From: Celeribacter sp. HF31
GTDB lineage: Bacteria; Pseudomonadota; Alphaproteobacteria; Rhodobacterales; Rhodobacteraceae
Assembly (NCBI RefSeq): GCF_011806455.1
Contig: NZ_JAATOT010000001.1
Location: 1-64,000, forward strand
Direction of reading: 5' to 3'
DNA length: 64,000 nucleotides
The notes beneath the pieces are model-generated. The model made no database searches. It had not been told where the DNA came from and saw nothing but the letters and a program-made list of their open reading frames with translations. Made by a program: the position numbers and the translations under genes. Below are positions 36,046 through 42,103 of the stretch, in pieces (position 1 is the first letter of the stretch; each line of letters begins with the position of its first letter).

Positions 36046-38430
36046 TTAGGAACGGGGGCGTTCCTTTTTCGGATCATAATGCGGGAAGGGTGCGACGCGC
36101 GCCGAGTAGCGTTTCAGGTGGCCGTCGAGTTGGCCAACCTCGACCAGCGTGCCCTCTTCGGCATGGGCCACGTCGATGCGGGCGAGCGCGATCCATTGAC
36201 CCGTGCGCGGGCTGCGCATGGCGGAGCAAATCTCGCCCACCTGCGCGCGCCCGATGCGGATGCAATCGCCATGCGCCACGGCGTTCTGGCCGTCGATTTC
36301 GAGTCCCACAAATTTGCGCGAGGGCGTTTCCTTGCGACGCAGCAGAGCATCGCGCCCGACGAAATCCGCAGTCTTGGATTTGAGCGGCACCGTAAAGCCG
36401 ACACCGGCCTCGAAAGGGTCGGTCTGATCGGAGAAATCGTAACCCGCAAAGACCAACCCGGCCTCGATCCGCACGAGGTCGAGGGCCGCGAGGCCCATAG
36501 GCTTCATGCCGACTTTCTGCCCGGCCTCCCAGACCGCTTTGAAAATTTCGGCACCGTGCTTCGGATGACAGAAAATCTCATAGCCCAGCTCGCCGGTGTA
36601 ACCGGTGCGCGAGATCACGACGGGGATGCCCTCGTGATCGCCGAGACGCGCGGGCGTGAAGCGGAACCAACCCATCTCCATCAAATCAGGATGATGCGGC
36701 GCGGTCCAAAACAGCTCATTGATCAAATCTCGCGATTTCGGGCCCTGGACCGCGAGGTTGTGCATCTGATCGGTCGAGGAGCGGATCATGACGTTGAGGC
36801 CAAGGCGTTTTGCCTCTTCGCGCATCCAGACACCGCCCTCATCCGAGCCGCCGATCCAGCGGAAATTATGCTCGCCCAGACGGAACAAGGTGCCGTCGTC
36901 GATCATGCCGCCGTGCGGGTAGCACATGGCGGAATAGACCACCTGACCAATGGCGAGTTTCTCGACATTGCGAGTCAGAACCCAGTTCATCAGCGCCTCG
37001 GCATCGGGGCCGGTGACCTCGAATTTTCTGAGCGCGGAGAGGTCCATGACCACCACGCCTTCGCGGCAGGCCCAGTAGCTCTCCACGGGGTCGCATTCCG
37101 GGAAAGAGTTCGGAAGCCAGAACCCGTTGTAGTCGGCAAAGTCGCGGGTCATCGTGGCAAAGGAATCGTAAAAACCGCTTTCACGCGTCATGATCGGGTC
37201 CTCGTCAGGGGTCGGGCGCCAGGCGGTGGCGCGGGAGAAACGTTCCTCGGCGCCGTAGGTGCGCACATGGATGTCGGTGAGGTGCCAGCCATTGGCGGCG
37301 GAGGTGTCATCGGGGCAGGACGATGAGACACAGACCAGATCGGTCAACGCGCGCAACAGCACATAGTCGCCGGGCCGCGACCAGGGCTCATCCGCCAGCA
37401 TGACGCCGTGCTCGTCGATTGCGGTGTTGAAAAAGAAATTCGCCGCCATCCAACCGGGACGGGCGGGGATGCCATAGGGGTCGAGAACTGCGTTGAAATT
37501 GTCGGAACAGTTGGCGTGACCGGGGTAGCCGATGTCGTCGTAATATTTGGCGTTGCAGGCCAGACCGAAGGCATCGTGGCGACCGCAGGTGTCTTGTACA
37601 ACCTCGACCAAGGGCGTCAGGTCATGGTCGAAGTACTTCGCGTGCAGCCCGGGCATCGGGTAGGCGTGGCCTTGGATCGTGCGGGTGGTGGTGACGTCGA
37701 GCGGATGAAAAATACCCTTGTCGACCTTGCGCGCATCGAAACATTGAAAGTCGGTGCACTGGCGGCCGTCCACGTCCATGATCTGGATGAATTCACCCTT
37801 TTTGACCGTGTAGGCCTTGGCAGTTGCGGAGGCGATGCGGATGTCTTGCAGCGTGTCCGCAAGCGGGTCGGGGAGGGCGAATGAGCCCTCATGGCGGGCC
37901 TCAGCGCGGGTGATCGTGACCATCAAAGGCGTGGCGGTATTCTGTGCCTCGAAATCTGGCTCGGGGGCTGGGGCGGTGATCAACAGCCAGCCTGCGTTTT
38001 GCGCCGTGAAGCTGACGCCTTCGCCCGCCGGGCTGGTCGTGGAAAAGAGGCCGATGGCCCTGGCGCCTGCCAGATCGATCTGACGTTTCGCAAGGCCCAA
38101 ACGGAGACGCGCCATGCCGGGCAGGGCGCTATTTACCGTGGTGCGCAGATCATCGCCGGAGGCATCGGCGGACCAGCCCAAGACACCCGGATCGACACGC
38201 CCGTCCGTGTGCGCCGCGAGCAATTCACAGCGCTGGCCGCCCTCGGTGTTGGTGACGGTGATCCGATCTCCGGGCTTTACCTCAAGCAAAGACGCCCCAC
38301 CGCCTTGGACGGTGTGGCGTTCCTCGTTGGAGGCGAGTCGGTAGGCACCTGCGCGCCGCGGGAGAGAGGCCGTGGGTGGGCCAGAACGAAAAGGAAGGCC
38401 GGAAGGATCGAGGATCAACGGGATCTCCAT
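36046..38430 (-). CDS. tdm: Trimethylamine N-oxide demethylase (DUF1989-GcvT fusion)
   Basis: 794 residues. A DUF1989 region in two parts covers about 1-395, with the catalytic-type half at about 200-395 (IQIMDVDGRQCTDFQCFD; QDTCGRHDAFGLACN; GHANCSDNFNAVLDP; LTDLVCVSSSCPDDTSAAN). Candidate zinc ligands include Cys near 282, 308 and 367. A GcvT-type folate domain follows (about 420-794: YWACREGVVVMDLSALRKFE; SRTGYTGELGYEIFCHPKHG). This architecture and size are those of Tdm, which splits TMAO into dimethylamine and formaldehyde, the latter captured on tetrahydrofolate. tmm lies upstream on the same strand. An intrinsic terminator ends only 10 nt before the assigned ATG and no ribosome site is visible, so the true start may be further in. 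Confidence 0.92.
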   Translation of the reverse strand: MEIPLILDPSGLPFRSGPPTASLPRRAGAYRLASNEERHTVQGGGASLLEVKPGDRITVTNTEGGQRCELLAAHTDGRVDPGVLGWSADASGDDLRTTVNSALPGMARLRLGLAKRQIDLAGARAIGLFSTTSPAGEGVSFTAQNAGWLLITAPAPEPDFEAQNTATPLMVTITRAEARHEGSFALPDPLADTLQDIRIASATAKAYTVKKGEFIQIMDVDGRQCTDFQCFDARKVDKGIFHPLDVTTTRTIQGHAYPMPGLHAKYFDHDLTPLVEVVQDTCGRHDAFGLACNAKYYDDIGYPGHANCSDNFNAVLDPYGIPARPGWMAANFFFNTAIDEHGVMLADEPWSRPGDYVLLRALTDLVCVSSSCPDDTSAANGWHLTDIHVRTYGAEERFSRATAWRPTPDEDPIMTRESGFYDSFATMTRDFADYNGFWLPNSFPECDPVESYWACREGVVVMDLSALRKFEVTGPDAEALMNWVLTRNVEKLAIGQVVYSAMCYPHGGMIDDGTLFRLGEHNFRWIGGSDEGGVWMREEAKRLGLNVMIRSSTDQMHNLAVQGPKSRDLINELFWTAPHHPDLMEMGWFRFTPARLGDHEGIPVVISRTGYTGELGYEIFCHPKHGAEIFKAVWEAGQKVGMKPMGLAALDLVRIEAGLVFAGYDFSDQTDPFEAGVGFTVPLKSKTADFVGRDALLRRKETPSRKFVGLEIDGQNAVAHGDCIRIGRAQVGEICSAMRSPRTGQWIALARIDVAHAEEGTLVEVGQLDGHLKRYSARVAPFPHYDPKKERPRS

Positions 38431-38440
38431 CGGTCAGAAT

Positions 38441-38477
38441 AAAAAAATCCGGGGGTGCGTGATTGCGGTCCCCCGGA
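38441..38477 (-). terminator. Intrinsic terminator immediately upstream of tdm
   Basis: On the minus strand an 8-bp stem (TCCGGGGG / CCCCCGGA, arms 38470-38477 and 38448-38455) with a 14-nt loop is followed by seven T (38447-38441). The tdm start codon is 10 nt further. The preceding TCCCC-TGATCC-GGGGA can form a competing hairpin that would break the terminator, so this could be an attenuator. Confidence 0.8.
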
Positions 38478-38495
38478 TCAGGGGAGAGGGAAGGG

Positions 38496-38511
38496 GCCCC
38501 GTCTCCGGGGC
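38496..38511 (-). other. Hairpin with a GAGA tetraloop in the tmm-tdm spacer
   Basis: GCCCCG-GAGA-CGGGGC on the minus strand, a 6-bp stem closed by a GNRA-type loop. It lies between the tandem stem-loops and the terminator of the tdm leader. Confidence 0.6.
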
Positions 38512-38520
38512 ATCCGATTG

Positions 38521-38604
38521 GTTCTGCCCGATCAGCGTTTGCTGATCAGTTTTGCCCGATCAGCCTTGGCTGACCAGTTTTGCCCGATCAGCCTTGGCTG
38601 ATCA
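38521..38604 (-). repeat. Three tandem 28-bp stem-loop repeats after tmm
   Basis: Units at 38521-38548, 38549-38576 and 38577-38604 share the plan GTTTTGCCCGATCAGC...GCTGATCA. Each holds a 7-8-bp inverted repeat (GATCAGC / GCTGATC). They differ at a few positions, one of which (GACCA for GATCA in unit 2) changes a stem pair. The last unit overlaps the tmm stop codon. The stems have no T-run. Confidence 0.92.
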
Positions 38605-39942
38605 GTTTTGCAAGTAGGCTTCCATGCTGTCGTCCAGCGCGTCTTTCCAGGGCGTGTGGTGCGCGGGAGCCATGGTGCCGGTGATCGGAGACACATAGGC
38701 ATTGTTGCGGAAGGTCATGATCCCTTCCTTCTTGTGCTTTTTCCATTGGAAGAAGGCCGTGTTGGCGGCATCGACATCGAAGCTCGGGTAATCCGTATCC
38801 GCAATCAGTTCTTTGACATATTCGCCTTGGTAAACGATGCAGTCGTTGTCGGTCTCGTTCTTGGCCTCTGCGGCCACACGCGCCTCGACATCGGCGGCCA
38901 TTGTGGCCGCATCGGGCAGTTCGATCCGGCCCAGAATGATGTCACGCACATACCATGCCTGAGCGTCGAACATGTTAAACGTATACCACTGGTCCTGCAT
39001 GCCGAGATAGAACATCTTCGGATTGGGATTATAGACCACGCCTTTGTAGAGATCCGCCGTGGCCAGAACATTGGCGGTTTTCAGACGCAGATCGTCGGGC
39101 AGGAAGGGGAAGTAGTGTTTGTAGCCGGTGCACAGGATGATGGCATCGACGTCTTTTGTGGTCCCGTCCTTGAAATAGGCCGTTGCGCCCTCGACTTTTT
39201 CGAGCGCCGGTTTTTCTTCCCAGTTCTCCGGCCACTTAAAGCCCATCGGCGCAGAGCGGTAGCAGCTTGTGACCGTTTTGGCGCCGTATTTCCAGCACTG
39301 CGATCCGATGTCTTCGGCGGAATAGGAGGCCCCGACGACAAGCACGTCCTTGCCAGCAAATTCGCGGGCATCGCGGAAGTCATGTGCGTGAATGATGCGT
39401 CCGTTGAATTGGGCAAAGCCCGGGTATTCCGGCACGTTCGGCGAGGAGAAATGGCCGGAGGCGACGATCACATTGTCGAACCGTTCTTTGTAGACTCGGT
39501 CGTTTTCCATGTCGTGCACAGTGATTTCAAAATCACCCTTTTCTTCGTCATACTCGACCCAGCGAATGATAGAGGAAAAGCGGATCCACTTGCGTACGTC
39601 GGCTTTTTTGACCCGACCTTCGATATAATCGAACAGAACGGCGCGTGGCGGATAGGACGCGATCTGCTTGCCGAAATGTTCCTCAAAGGAATAGTCGGCA
39701 AATTCCAAACCCTCTTTCGGACCATTGGACCAGAGGTAGCGGTACATGGAGCAATGCACTGGCTCGCCATTCTCATCGACGCCGGTGCGCCAGGTGTAGT
39801 TCCACAGCCCGCCCCAGTTCGATTGCTTCTCGAAACAGACGACTTCCGGGATCTCGGCACCCTTCTGGGCGGCGGATTGGAAAGCACGCAGTTGAGCGAG
39901 GCCGGAGGGGCCAGCACCGATGACGGCGACTCGTTTGGTCAT
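38602..39942 (-). CDS. tmm: Trimethylamine monooxygenase (flavin-containing)
   Basis: 446 residues, class B flavin monooxygenase. FAD motif [13 protein letters not shown] (near 9), NADPH motif [15 protein letters not shown] (near 203), and FMO fingerprint [11 protein letters not shown] (fits FxGxxxHxxxF) between them. The late [10 protein letters not shown] segment is typical of the family. Overall sequence and length match Tmm, which oxygenates trimethylamine to TMAO with NADPH and O2. tdm follows on the same strand. The divergent gap to the binding-protein gene carries TTGG-N-CCAA repeats that also occur before the GntR and amt genes. Confidence 0.96.
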
Positions 39943-39971
39943 ATTGAAAACTCCCGTTGGTTGAGCGTGTG

Positions 39972-40029
39972 TTGGTATGGACCAATAATCAAGATTGGTT
40001 CTTTTGGATTGACTCCGGTTTGGTCCAAA
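39972..40029. promoter_or_regulatory. Candidate GntR operators in the tmm divergent promoter region
   Basis: TTGGTATGGACCAA at 39972-39985 is a TTGGT-N4-ACCAA palindrome containing ATGGACCAA (one mismatch to TTGG-N-CCAA). TTTGGTCCAAA at 40019-40029 is a perfect match to TTGG-N-CCAA. The same word is found at 54919-54946, 55705-55713 and 56025-56038. Binding by the GntR protein at 54975 is inference. Confidence 0.55.
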
Positions 40030-40123
40030 AATTTTCTGCTGGTCAATGAATTTTCCTTAGAGGAATATATGAATCGGGAAATCTCTCGGTCTATTGACCT
40101 ATTTTTGGGCGTGAGGTGAAAAA

Positions 40124-41410
40124 ATGAGCAGCGCTTCGCTGGCACAGAGACTGGCCGTCGCAGGCAGCCTGCCGCGCTTGAGCGTGCAGGATCGCGCGCC
40201 CATTCGTATTGGGGCGCTGGTGCCGATGTCCGGCGCCGAAGAATCCTGGGGCCGACCGGGTATCGAAGGCTGTCAGCTCTGGGTCGATTGGATCAACGCG
40301 CATGGCGGTATGATGCTGGGCGGGCGGCGGCACTTGGTCGAGTTGAGCGTCTATGACAGTGGCGACGGGCCGGAGGCGACGCTTGAGGCCGCGCGACAGA
40401 TGGTCGAGACCCAGCGCGTGCGGCTGGTCCTGACCTTGGGCGGCGGCGACATGGCGCTGGCGCTGCCTTACCTGATGCAACGTCGCATTCTGACCGCGAC
40501 GCTTTTGCCGTCGGACCTCTCTCCCGATCACCCCTTTCTCATCGCCCCCGCCGAGGTGCACCCTTTCTTTAATGTCACCGGCGTCGACTGGCTGGCCCGG
40601 ACACGCCCCGAGGCGACGCGTGTGGCGCTCTGTTCGCAACGCGATCTCATGGGCCTGCCGTCTCTGGCGACCTACCGCGCGGCCTTTGATGTCGCCGGGC
40701 GCGAGGTGGTGCGCGAAGTGCATTATGAAGCCGAGGCTGGGGACGCGCGCGCCATCGTGGCGGAGATGCTGGCCTCCAATCCCGATGTGCTCTGTTGGTG
40801 CTCCTCGGCGCCGCCGATGATCGAGGAGCTGACCGTGGCGGCCTATGAGGCCGGGTTCACGGGCGAAATTCTCGCCTGTACCTGCGACAATTATCAGCGG
40901 CTGATCGCCCGCACCTCGCCCGACTTCATGGCGCGCTTCACCTTCCAGTTCCCGGATTTTGATGATGCGGCGCTGGCGGACACGGCGTTCTTCTTTCACC
41001 GGCCCAAAGCCTTTTTCGACGCTTATATCGACCGCTTCCCGGATCATTGGTCTGCGGTGAGTTGGGAATACGCCTCCATTCTGGACCTTTGGCACGATGC
41101 AGTCGAGACGGCGGACAGCCTCAATGCCTCCTCGGTTCTGGCCGCGCTGAAACGCGGGCGCCGGATGCCGCATGCCTTCGGGTTGGCGACCTGGTGGGGC
41201 ACGGATGTCTACGGCATCGACAATGCGCTGGTCGGCGATTGGCCGGTGGTGGCGATCCGGGACGGTAAGGCGGAGATTCAGGAATTCGGTTCGGTGCTCG
41301 GCTGGCTTGAGGCGCACGGGGCCCGGTTGATGGAAGAGCTGGGTGCACTTGGTCAGCTTTGGCACCAACGCGACAAACCCGATTTGACACGCGCCCTGGC
41401 GCAGGACTGA
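40124..41410 (+). CDS. LivJ/AmiC-type ligand-binding protein without signal peptide
   Basis: 428 residues, type 1 periplasmic-binding fold of the Leu/Ile/Val or amide/urea class. IRIGALVPMSGAEESWGRPG is at 28-47, with GCQLWVDWINAHGG, DSGDGPEATLEAARQMVETQ and ASILDLWHDAVETADSLNAS further on. The N-terminus has no hydrophobic stretch, and an in-frame stop 12 bp upstream rules out a longer start with one. It should therefore be cytoplasmic. AmiC-like proteins of this fold sense ligands in the cytoplasm and control transcription. No permease genes are near, but an XRE-cupin regulator follows 39 bp later. It is divergent from tmm. A ligand such as a methylated amine or amide is a guess. Confidence 0.82.
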   Translation: MSSASLAQRLAVAGSLPRLSVQDRAPIRIGALVPMSGAEESWGRPGIEGCQLWVDWINAHGGMMLGGRRHLVELSVYDSGDGPEATLEAARQMVETQRVRLVLTLGGGDMALALPYLMQRRILTATLLPSDLSPDHPFLIAPAEVHPFFNVTGVDWLARTRPEATRVALCSQRDLMGLPSLATYRAAFDVAGREVVREVHYEAEAGDARAIVAEMLASNPDVLCWCSSAPPMIEELTVAAYEAGFTGEILACTCDNYQRLIARTSPDFMARFTFQFPDFDDAALADTAFFFHRPKAFFDAYIDRFPDHWSAVSWEYASILDLWHDAVETADSLNASSVLAALKRGRRMPHAFGLATWWGTDVYGIDNALVGDWPVVAIRDGKAEIQEFGSVLGWLEAHGARLMEELGALGQLWHQRDKPDLTRALAQD

Positions 41411-41449
41411 CCGTCAAAACGCGGGTCCTATAGATAAGAGAGAAAGAAC

Positions 41450-42103
41450 GTGACAGGAGAGATGACTTTGAAGCCGGAAGAAACCGCCCTGCGTCAAAAC
41501 CCCCATGCCGTCAAAGAGCAGCGGGAAAAGAACCTCGAGGTCGCCATCGGGCGTCAGGTGCGCGAGCTGCGCAAACGGCAACGGCTGACGGGCGCCGATC
41601 TGGCGGCGCAGACCGGGCTGTCCGTGGGGATGCTCTCAAAGATCGAGAATGGCGTGATCTCTCCTTCGCTCAACACGATCTCCGCGCTGGCGCATGCGTT
41701 GAAAGTGCCGCTGGTACAACTGTTCTCCGGTTACGAGGAAGAGCGCGGTTGCATGCATGTGAAAGCGGGCGACGGCGTCGAGATCGAGCGCGCAGGCACC
41801 CGTGCCGGGCATCAATACAGTCTCTTGGGACATATCGGGTCAAATAATTCGGGCGTCGTAGTCGAGCCTTATCTGATCGAGCTGACCGATGCGTCGGATC
41901 GGTTCCCGGCGTTTCAACATGAAGGCATCGAGCTTTTGTACATGTTGGAGGGCCGCGTCGACTATCGTCATGGCGACAAGATTTATGCGCTGGAGCCGGG
42001 CGATACGCTTTTGTTCGACTCAGATGCGCCCCATGGCCCCGAGGTCATTGTCGAGCTGCCCGCCCGTTACCTGTCGATCATCACCTACCCGCAGGCGCGC
42101 TGA
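41450..42103 (+). CDS. XRE-family regulator with C-terminal cupin domain
   Basis: 217 residues if the GTG at 41450 is used; the ATG at 41462 has GGAG only 2 nt upstream and is less convincing. A Cro/C1 HTH lies at about 30-90 (VRELRKRQRLTGADLAAQTG; SVGMLSKIENGVISPSLNTI), and a cupin fold at about 130-215 (FQHEGIELLYMLEGRVDYRH; LEPGDTLLFDSDAPHGPEV). The cupin probably senses a small metabolite. The gene lies between the LivJ-like protein and mgsABC and points at them, so it is a likely regulator of the N-methylglutamate genes. A 239-bp non-coding gap separates it from mgsA. Confidence 0.87.
   Translation: MTGEMTLKPEETALRQNPHAVKEQREKNLEVAIGRQVRELRKRQRLTGADLAAQTGLSVGMLSKIENGVISPSLNTISALAHALKVPLVQLFSGYEEERGCMHVKAGDGVEIERAGTRAGHQYSLLGHIGSNNSGVVVEPYLIELTDASDRFPAFQHEGIELLYMLEGRVDYRHGDKIYALEPGDTLLFDSDAPHGPEVIVELPARYLSIITYPQAR

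Follow-up and report, generated by a model that had tools for sequence, protein, structure and literature searches.

Trimethylamine breakdown by Rhodobacteraceae feeds into marine nitrogen and into cloud-forming amines. Transcriptional attenuators are built from an antiterminator strand, a shared strand and a terminator strand in this order, followed by a U-run, and an intercistronic hairpin in puf, reportedly described by Klug in 1987, is said to have effects on the stability of mRNA segments. In Ruegeria pomeroyi, where tmm and tdm lie apart, TmaR activates tdm's own promoter and TmoR represses tmm, according to the accessible part of the source (PMC13390433). Upstream of mraZ in R. sphaeroides lies the UpsM terminator, and the available text of that study describes mraZ as lacking a separate start site and as being reached by readthrough about once in 100 (PMC5089854).

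We analyzed the spacer between tmm and tdm of Celeribacter sp. HF31 in a window of 64,000 nucleotides, i.e., the whole stretch of DNA under study. On its minus strand, an FMO-like gene of the list of open reading frames (38602..39942; Pfam FMO-like, E 5.7e-44) precedes one with DUF1989 and GCV_T domains (36046..38418 from the start proposed below), and the putative names tmm for trimethylamine monooxygenase and tdm for TMAO demethylase were assigned from family and neighborhood. As assigned, the tdm reading frame begins at 38430, and tmm ends at 38602. Divergent genes beside tmm (window positions 40124-42103) encode a periplasmic binding protein (Peripla_BP_6) and an HTH-cupin regulator. Its anatomy and comparison with related loci give good support to a conserved, tdm-linked, terminator-like element that transcription of tdm would have to cross. 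An earlier note on this DNA had read the spacer as a possible attenuator leader; its terminator-like hairpin between the genes and its suggestion of a start further in stand, and its tandem repeats as working parts and its leaderless mRNA do not. The tmm/tdm pathway papers that we examined, PMC4543880 among them, do not contain the word terminator; subscription papers lay mostly outside this search, and the element may already have been described.

Structures in the tmm-tdm spacer

From tmm to tdm, the transcript would run through three 28-nt units, a GAGA-capped hairpin, CTCCCC, a 10-pair stem, seven T, ATTCTGACCG and the assigned ATG, and every structure named in the earlier note is present on the minus strand. 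The three tandem units occupy 38521..38611 with stem-loops at 38586-38603, 38558-38575 and 38530-38547; the first overlaps the tmm stop codon, and the stem-loop of the one unit that was folded reaches -15 kcal/mol. Among 13 genus members whose tmm-tdm spacer was read, three copies occur in this genome, two in L009 and none in the 11 others, and a pattern search allowing up to two mismatches found no second array in the own genome and one lone weak palindrome besides. From this distribution, the repeats appear to be a local variable-number repeat at the 3' end of tmm. Their proposed role as part of a conserved attenuator or switch fails on their presence in only 2 of the 13 genus members, and a genome-wide element was likewise rejected for want of a further array. 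The 3' part of tmm itself (~38602-39020) is 63-79% identical to L038, L039, L040, L041, L047 and L073 (all Celeribacter) and 94-100% identical to L016 and L009, whereas Tdm is 97-98% identical to L038, L039 and L073 and 92% identical to L016, a contrast that looks like recombination ending near the spacer. The GAGA-capped GC hairpin, here called H1, lies at 38496..38511 on the minus strand. Other hairpins occupy its place in several Celeribacter, and hairpins at this place are equaled by at most 5 of 200 shuffles in six of nine spacers of the clade, with 37 of 200 for the window's own stretch.

Between H1 and tdm lies the terminator-like hairpin (GATCCGGGGG / CCCCCGGATT; 38446..38479, minus strand), whose folding energy of -20.4 kcal/mol was reached by none of 200 shuffles. 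Its GC-rich stem of 10 pairs encloses a loop of 14 nt and is directly followed by the U-run, as in an intrinsic terminator. The corresponding run of seven T (38441..38447), kept in relatives, stops 10 nt before the assigned ATG, just as the earlier note had it for a strong terminator, and 22 nt before the likely true start. The long loop, together with the miss by a simple scanner that called 0 terminators in 38380-38680 with a loop range of 3-8 nt, counts against reading the hairpin as a leaky terminator. A search of 38000-39000 gave no Rfam match above gathering score, with only a RAGATH-25 fragment on the plus strand at 16.7 bits (gathering 49; E 0.32).

A terminator close before a start codon is uncommon in this genome, not unique, and a kind of site that it uses: across 864 kb of its own sequence, the calls of a simple gene finder leave 268 co-directional gaps of 25-250 nt, and in 12 of them, tmm-tdm included, a terminator lies at most 25 nt from the start that follows, which counts against the leaky-terminator reading of tmm-tdm. 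The 11 others hold a terminator-like hairpin no more than 25 nt from the next called start (e.g., C5 201717 and C8 258770, coordinates in joined stretches), and such near-start hairpins may be a common way of grading operon output here.

Conservation in relatives and the start of tdm

For comparison, we used the spacers of 52 loci in which tmm immediately precedes tdm, drawn from the 80 closest Tdm loci and genus members after eight duplicate records had been dropped; these loci are no random sample and include some close kin (L008/L009, L053/L055, L062/L063). A strict caller finds a terminator in 25 of these spacers versus 38 of 520 dinucleotide shuffles; the 27 spacers without one, including those of four more distant genus members (L019, L020, L051 and L052), count against the reading as a leaky terminator. 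Where the terminator is called, the T-run and the tdm start column are 15-23 nt apart in 23 of the 25 spacers and 8 and 42 nt apart in the remaining two. Nine Celeribacter genomes keep the stem and six to eight T around a freely changing loop, and C. neptunius and C. persicus are among the species with the element. In an alignment of 16 sequences (nine Celeribacter, Pseudodonghicola, three Salipiger and three uncultured relatives), the bases that never vary are CCCC, GGGGG, some of the C arm, TTTT, GAT-GAG and, in the start column, TG. Two-sided changes affect two of the ten stem pairs, in one sequence each, a number that 19 of 500 shuffles reach, and 96.8% of cells in the stem are paired versus at most 80.3% when it is slid, with 55 of 500 shuffles reaching 96.8%. 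The terminator-like hairpin is thus conserved in many relatives, with modest signs that compensatory changes keep its stem. Covariation across tmm-tdm spacers, proposed as a check in the earlier note, is present to this modest degree in the terminator and missing from the alternative hairpin described below; the absence from close relatives that the note held against its own reading applies to the repeats only, and the terminator is there.

Comparison also bears on where translation of tdm starts. In the closest group of 14 spacers, window included, the probable start codon is TTG in 13 cases and GTG in one, each with GGAG or GGAGG 5-7 nt upstream. The probable Shine-Dalgarno sequence of this genome, GGAG at 38425..38428 on the minus strand, is contained in the assigned ATGGAG and sits 6 nt before a TTG (38416..38418, minus strand) that forms codon 5 of the assigned reading frame. 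In 4 of the 14 spacers the assigned ATG does not share the tdm frame, in C. litoreus (L047) its frame closes after seven codons, and other relatives have an ATG in the same column as the TTG, i.e., the column with the TG invariant in 16 of 16 aligned rows. By eye, an in-frame TGA stands one codon before the assigned ATG, and no Shine-Dalgarno sequence precedes that ATG. The true start of tdm is most likely the TTG at 38418-38416 and not the assigned ATG, which agrees with the option in the earlier note that translation starts further in. Because GGAG and a TTG or GTG are conserved past the T-run, a ribosome site probably follows the terminator, where the note had seen no room for one, and the leaderless tdm mRNA that it had offered instead appears unneeded with this arrangement in 14 of 14 spacers.

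A consensus scan limited to sigma-70 types detected 0 promoter-like sites in 38380-38680. Among 40 scanned tdm-like loci without tmm directly upstream, 23 (L021 and L083-L117) carry an AT-rich box ~44-68 nt before the start column (TATTCTT..AATAAATAAATATTCC..TGCAA), which is a candidate TmaR site or promoter of stand-alone tdm genes, and 17 have no such box. It is missing from the 52 tmm-tdm spacers, where the best score is 1.9 versus 45-61 for the 15 training sites, and its best score upstream of tmm is 14.4; the 17 box-less loci weaken the argument from this absence. A separate tdm promoter in the spacer was rejected on these two results, and because neither a sigma-70 site nor the stand-alone box is found there, tdm in the joined arrangement most likely depends on readthrough from tmm. 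Transcription started at tmm would then have to cross the terminator-like hairpin to make tdm, as the earlier note had suggested, with the hairpin in place and no promoter found after it. The best explanation is that tmm and tdm form one transcription unit, and in five relatives (L058, L060, L078, L081 and L108) the tdm start column follows the tmm stop at a distance of only 9-29 nt, which would fit co-transcription. Upstream of tmm, at 39943-40123 of the window, several relatives share an ATTCC..GAAAATT..TTGACC-like stretch that is possibly the operator and promoter of the tmm-tdm unit.

The hairpin could also be the ordinary end of a tmm unit with a tdm promoter overlapping it and giving a very short leader, and by eye TATTCT just past the T-run does match a -10 box at four of six positions. 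This stretch is broken in L016, L039, L043, L045 and L046, though, and with no site in the scan for sigma-70 types and no trace of the AT-rich box that precedes many stand-alone tdm genes, we regard such an overlapping promoter as highly improbable.

The C-run beside the terminator arm

Next to the hairpin, on its upstream side, lies a C-run able to pair with the terminator's 5' arm (38481..38484, minus strand; its CCCC is unchanged in all 16 aligned spacers). The alternative small hairpin TCCCC-TGATCC-GGGGA at 38485-38469, put forward in the earlier note as a possible antiterminator, is there in sequence and could compete for the 5' arm, but it shows 0 two-sided changes in 16 sequences, with its core bases invariant, and taken alone it is unexceptional (18 of 200 shuffles as good). 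In L056 and L075, by eye, an A in the arm faces a T in the C-run, a correspondence that is suggestive only as a sign of pairing.

For stems of -12 kcal/mol or better with GGGG in the arm, we sought CCCC in the 14 nt upstream. It is present in 22 of 23 such terminators in tmm-tdm spacers versus 0 of 68 in 864 kb of the own genome, and in 2 of 21 elsewhere in the relatives' loci, both just before a tdm; the 68, like the wide control hairpins used below, passed no gene filter and mostly lie, probably, inside genes. Of the 52 spacers, 21 have a C-run, G-arm, C-arm and T-run in this order (C4-G4-C4-T4), compared with 10 of 5200 shuffles, with L075 counted among the misses through a tdm start mis-set by a short match. 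Within the 864 kb, this order is found once, in the tmm-tdm spacer, and outside tmm-tdm spacers in the 80 named loci it is found only in L075 and L109, both times directly upstream of tdm. Searched with one fixed spacing, it appears once in the whole 3.6-Mb genome, at tmm-tdm, and the reversed control also once; across the family, 51 of 248 genomes have it versus 46 for the reversed control (hand count), a frequency at chance on which a family regulon was rejected. Among seven family-wide matches inspected, one is a tmm-tdm spacer (L190) and six have neither gene.

The locus L109 belongs to Paracoccus laeviglucosivorans, which has a tmm-tdm pair too (L107), and its C-G-C-T element at 2400-2480 stands between an ABC permease gene (by eye of the betaine/TMAO type) and tdm. 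Because the gene before this tdm is, by eye, an ABC permease, the element would accompany tdm and not tmm. This occurrence also bears on a different role for the spacer, in which its hairpins would stabilize or process mRNA by shielding the tmm part of a cleaved transcript from decay at its 3' end, and the U-run would be a landing site for RNase E or ribosomes with no terminator involved. The extra hairpins on the tmm side in Celeribacter (H1 and the repeats) would suit such a role, and the puf intercistronic hairpin with its reported effects on segment stability is a precedent. Against it stand the element before a tdm that has no tmm upstream and the T-run that follows the conserved stem at once and, in 23 of 25 cases, leaves 15-23 nt to the tdm start column; we consider this role rather unlikely.

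Pairing between the C-run and the arm is less distinctive in some comparisons than in others. Pairing of the 5' arm with the upstream bases reaches at least -4 kcal/mol in 24 of 25 tmm-tdm terminators versus 32 of 144 other intergenic terminators of the own genome, from which the tmm-tdm target was left out; counting against this, 559 of 937 wide, mostly genic controls in the own genome and 191 of 312 in relatives reach the same value. Shuffling the 14 upstream bases gives a mean pairing of -8.1 versus -9.0 for the native sequences, with p of 0.1 or less in only 4 of 25. Across 19 lineages, own C-run/arm pairing is not better than swapped pairing (p 0.30), in a test whose relaxed caller took another hairpin in L046, L047 and L054, the last of these being among the 19. 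The conserved feature, as judged by alignment, is the C-run beside a G-rich arm, and its action as an antiterminator is hypothetical.

Such an action would make the spacer a regulated attenuator, in which a signal, be it a pathway metabolite, a protein or the ribosome that finishes translating tmm, chooses between the C-run/G-arm hairpin and the terminator and tdm is switched separately. The near-constant CCCC upstream of GGGG-arm tmm-tdm terminators and its invariance beside a freely changing loop argue for this, as does the position of the hairpin in the 24 non-Celeribacter spacers where a relaxed caller finds one, 1-26 nt past the tmm stop (with another hairpin picked in a few) and near enough for a terminating ribosome to matter. 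In R. pomeroyi, moreover, the two genes are controlled separately with the genes apart, as the accessible text describes (PMC13390433). The alternative hairpin lacks covariation, however, pairing at -7 kcal/mol or better is also reached by 31 of the 68 GGGG-arm controls in the own genome, mostly inside genes, Rfam gave no match above threshold, and a distance of 38-122 nt between tmm stop and terminator, as eight of the nine Celeribacter spacers have it, exceeds what simple ribosome masking could bridge (in the ninth, L047, another hairpin was picked). Weighing both sides, we find a regulated attenuator unlikely and, more broadly, doubt that the element is regulated. A tdm-linked RNA switch widespread in Rhodobacteraceae, with a signal using the C-run to open or close tdm transcription and TMAO being made from trimethylamine without its breakdown, strikes us as distinctly unlikely.

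Incomplete termination and its relation to known systems

Our preferred reading, with a probability of roughly 0.6, is an intercistronic terminator that is passed incompletely, so that the output of tdm stays at a fraction of that of tmm. Of the RNA polymerases that started at the tmm promoter, some or most would halt at the intrinsic terminator and the others would continue; past the T-run they would find the tdm ribosome site only, and the level of tdm mRNA would become a fraction of that of tmm mRNA. The conserved C-run may briefly hold the terminator's 5' arm in a competing hairpin and thereby set the leakiness. A plausible gain would be that the formaldehyde-releasing Tdm step is kept below the TMAO-making Tmm step. 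Because readthrough at UpsM occurs at about 1 in 100, as reported in the accessible part of its description, passing a strong terminator should be feasible in Rhodobacteraceae (PMC5089854). The element thus suggests how the tmm and tdm steps can be set apart on a shared transcript, and it would give this family a further instance of a strong terminator that is read through, with the likely start codon of tdm corrected.

With the attenuator class, the tmm-tdm spacer has the three-segment order, the C-run being the putative antiterminator strand, and the U-run in common; unlike members of this class, it has no leader peptide, aptamer or protein site that we found in the spacer, and its alternative helix is without covariation. 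The TmaR/TmoR control of Ruegeria pomeroyi concerns the same pathway and genes and sets tmm and tdm separately, as is proposed here, but there, according to the part of the study available, tdm has its own activated promoter, whereas none is seen in the tmm-tdm spacer here (PMC13390433). In puf of Rhodobacter, i.e., in related bacteria, an intercistronic hairpin gives different gene levels within one operon, as is proposed for tmm and tdm; the title of that work, as its accessible part, speaks of mRNA stability, whereas here a T-run directly follows the stem (PMC6238624). UpsM, in the long 5' leader of the dcw cluster in the same bacterial family, differs in lying in the leader before the first gene and yielding an abundant sRNA, whereas the present element has a gene on either side, with an mRNA as the product of the upstream one (PMC5089854). 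As far as the accessible text of that study goes, the likeness to UpsM would be that a strong intrinsic terminator stands ahead of a gene that has no start site to itself and is expressed by readthrough, and an alternative pairing with the terminator was proposed there as well (PMC5089854).
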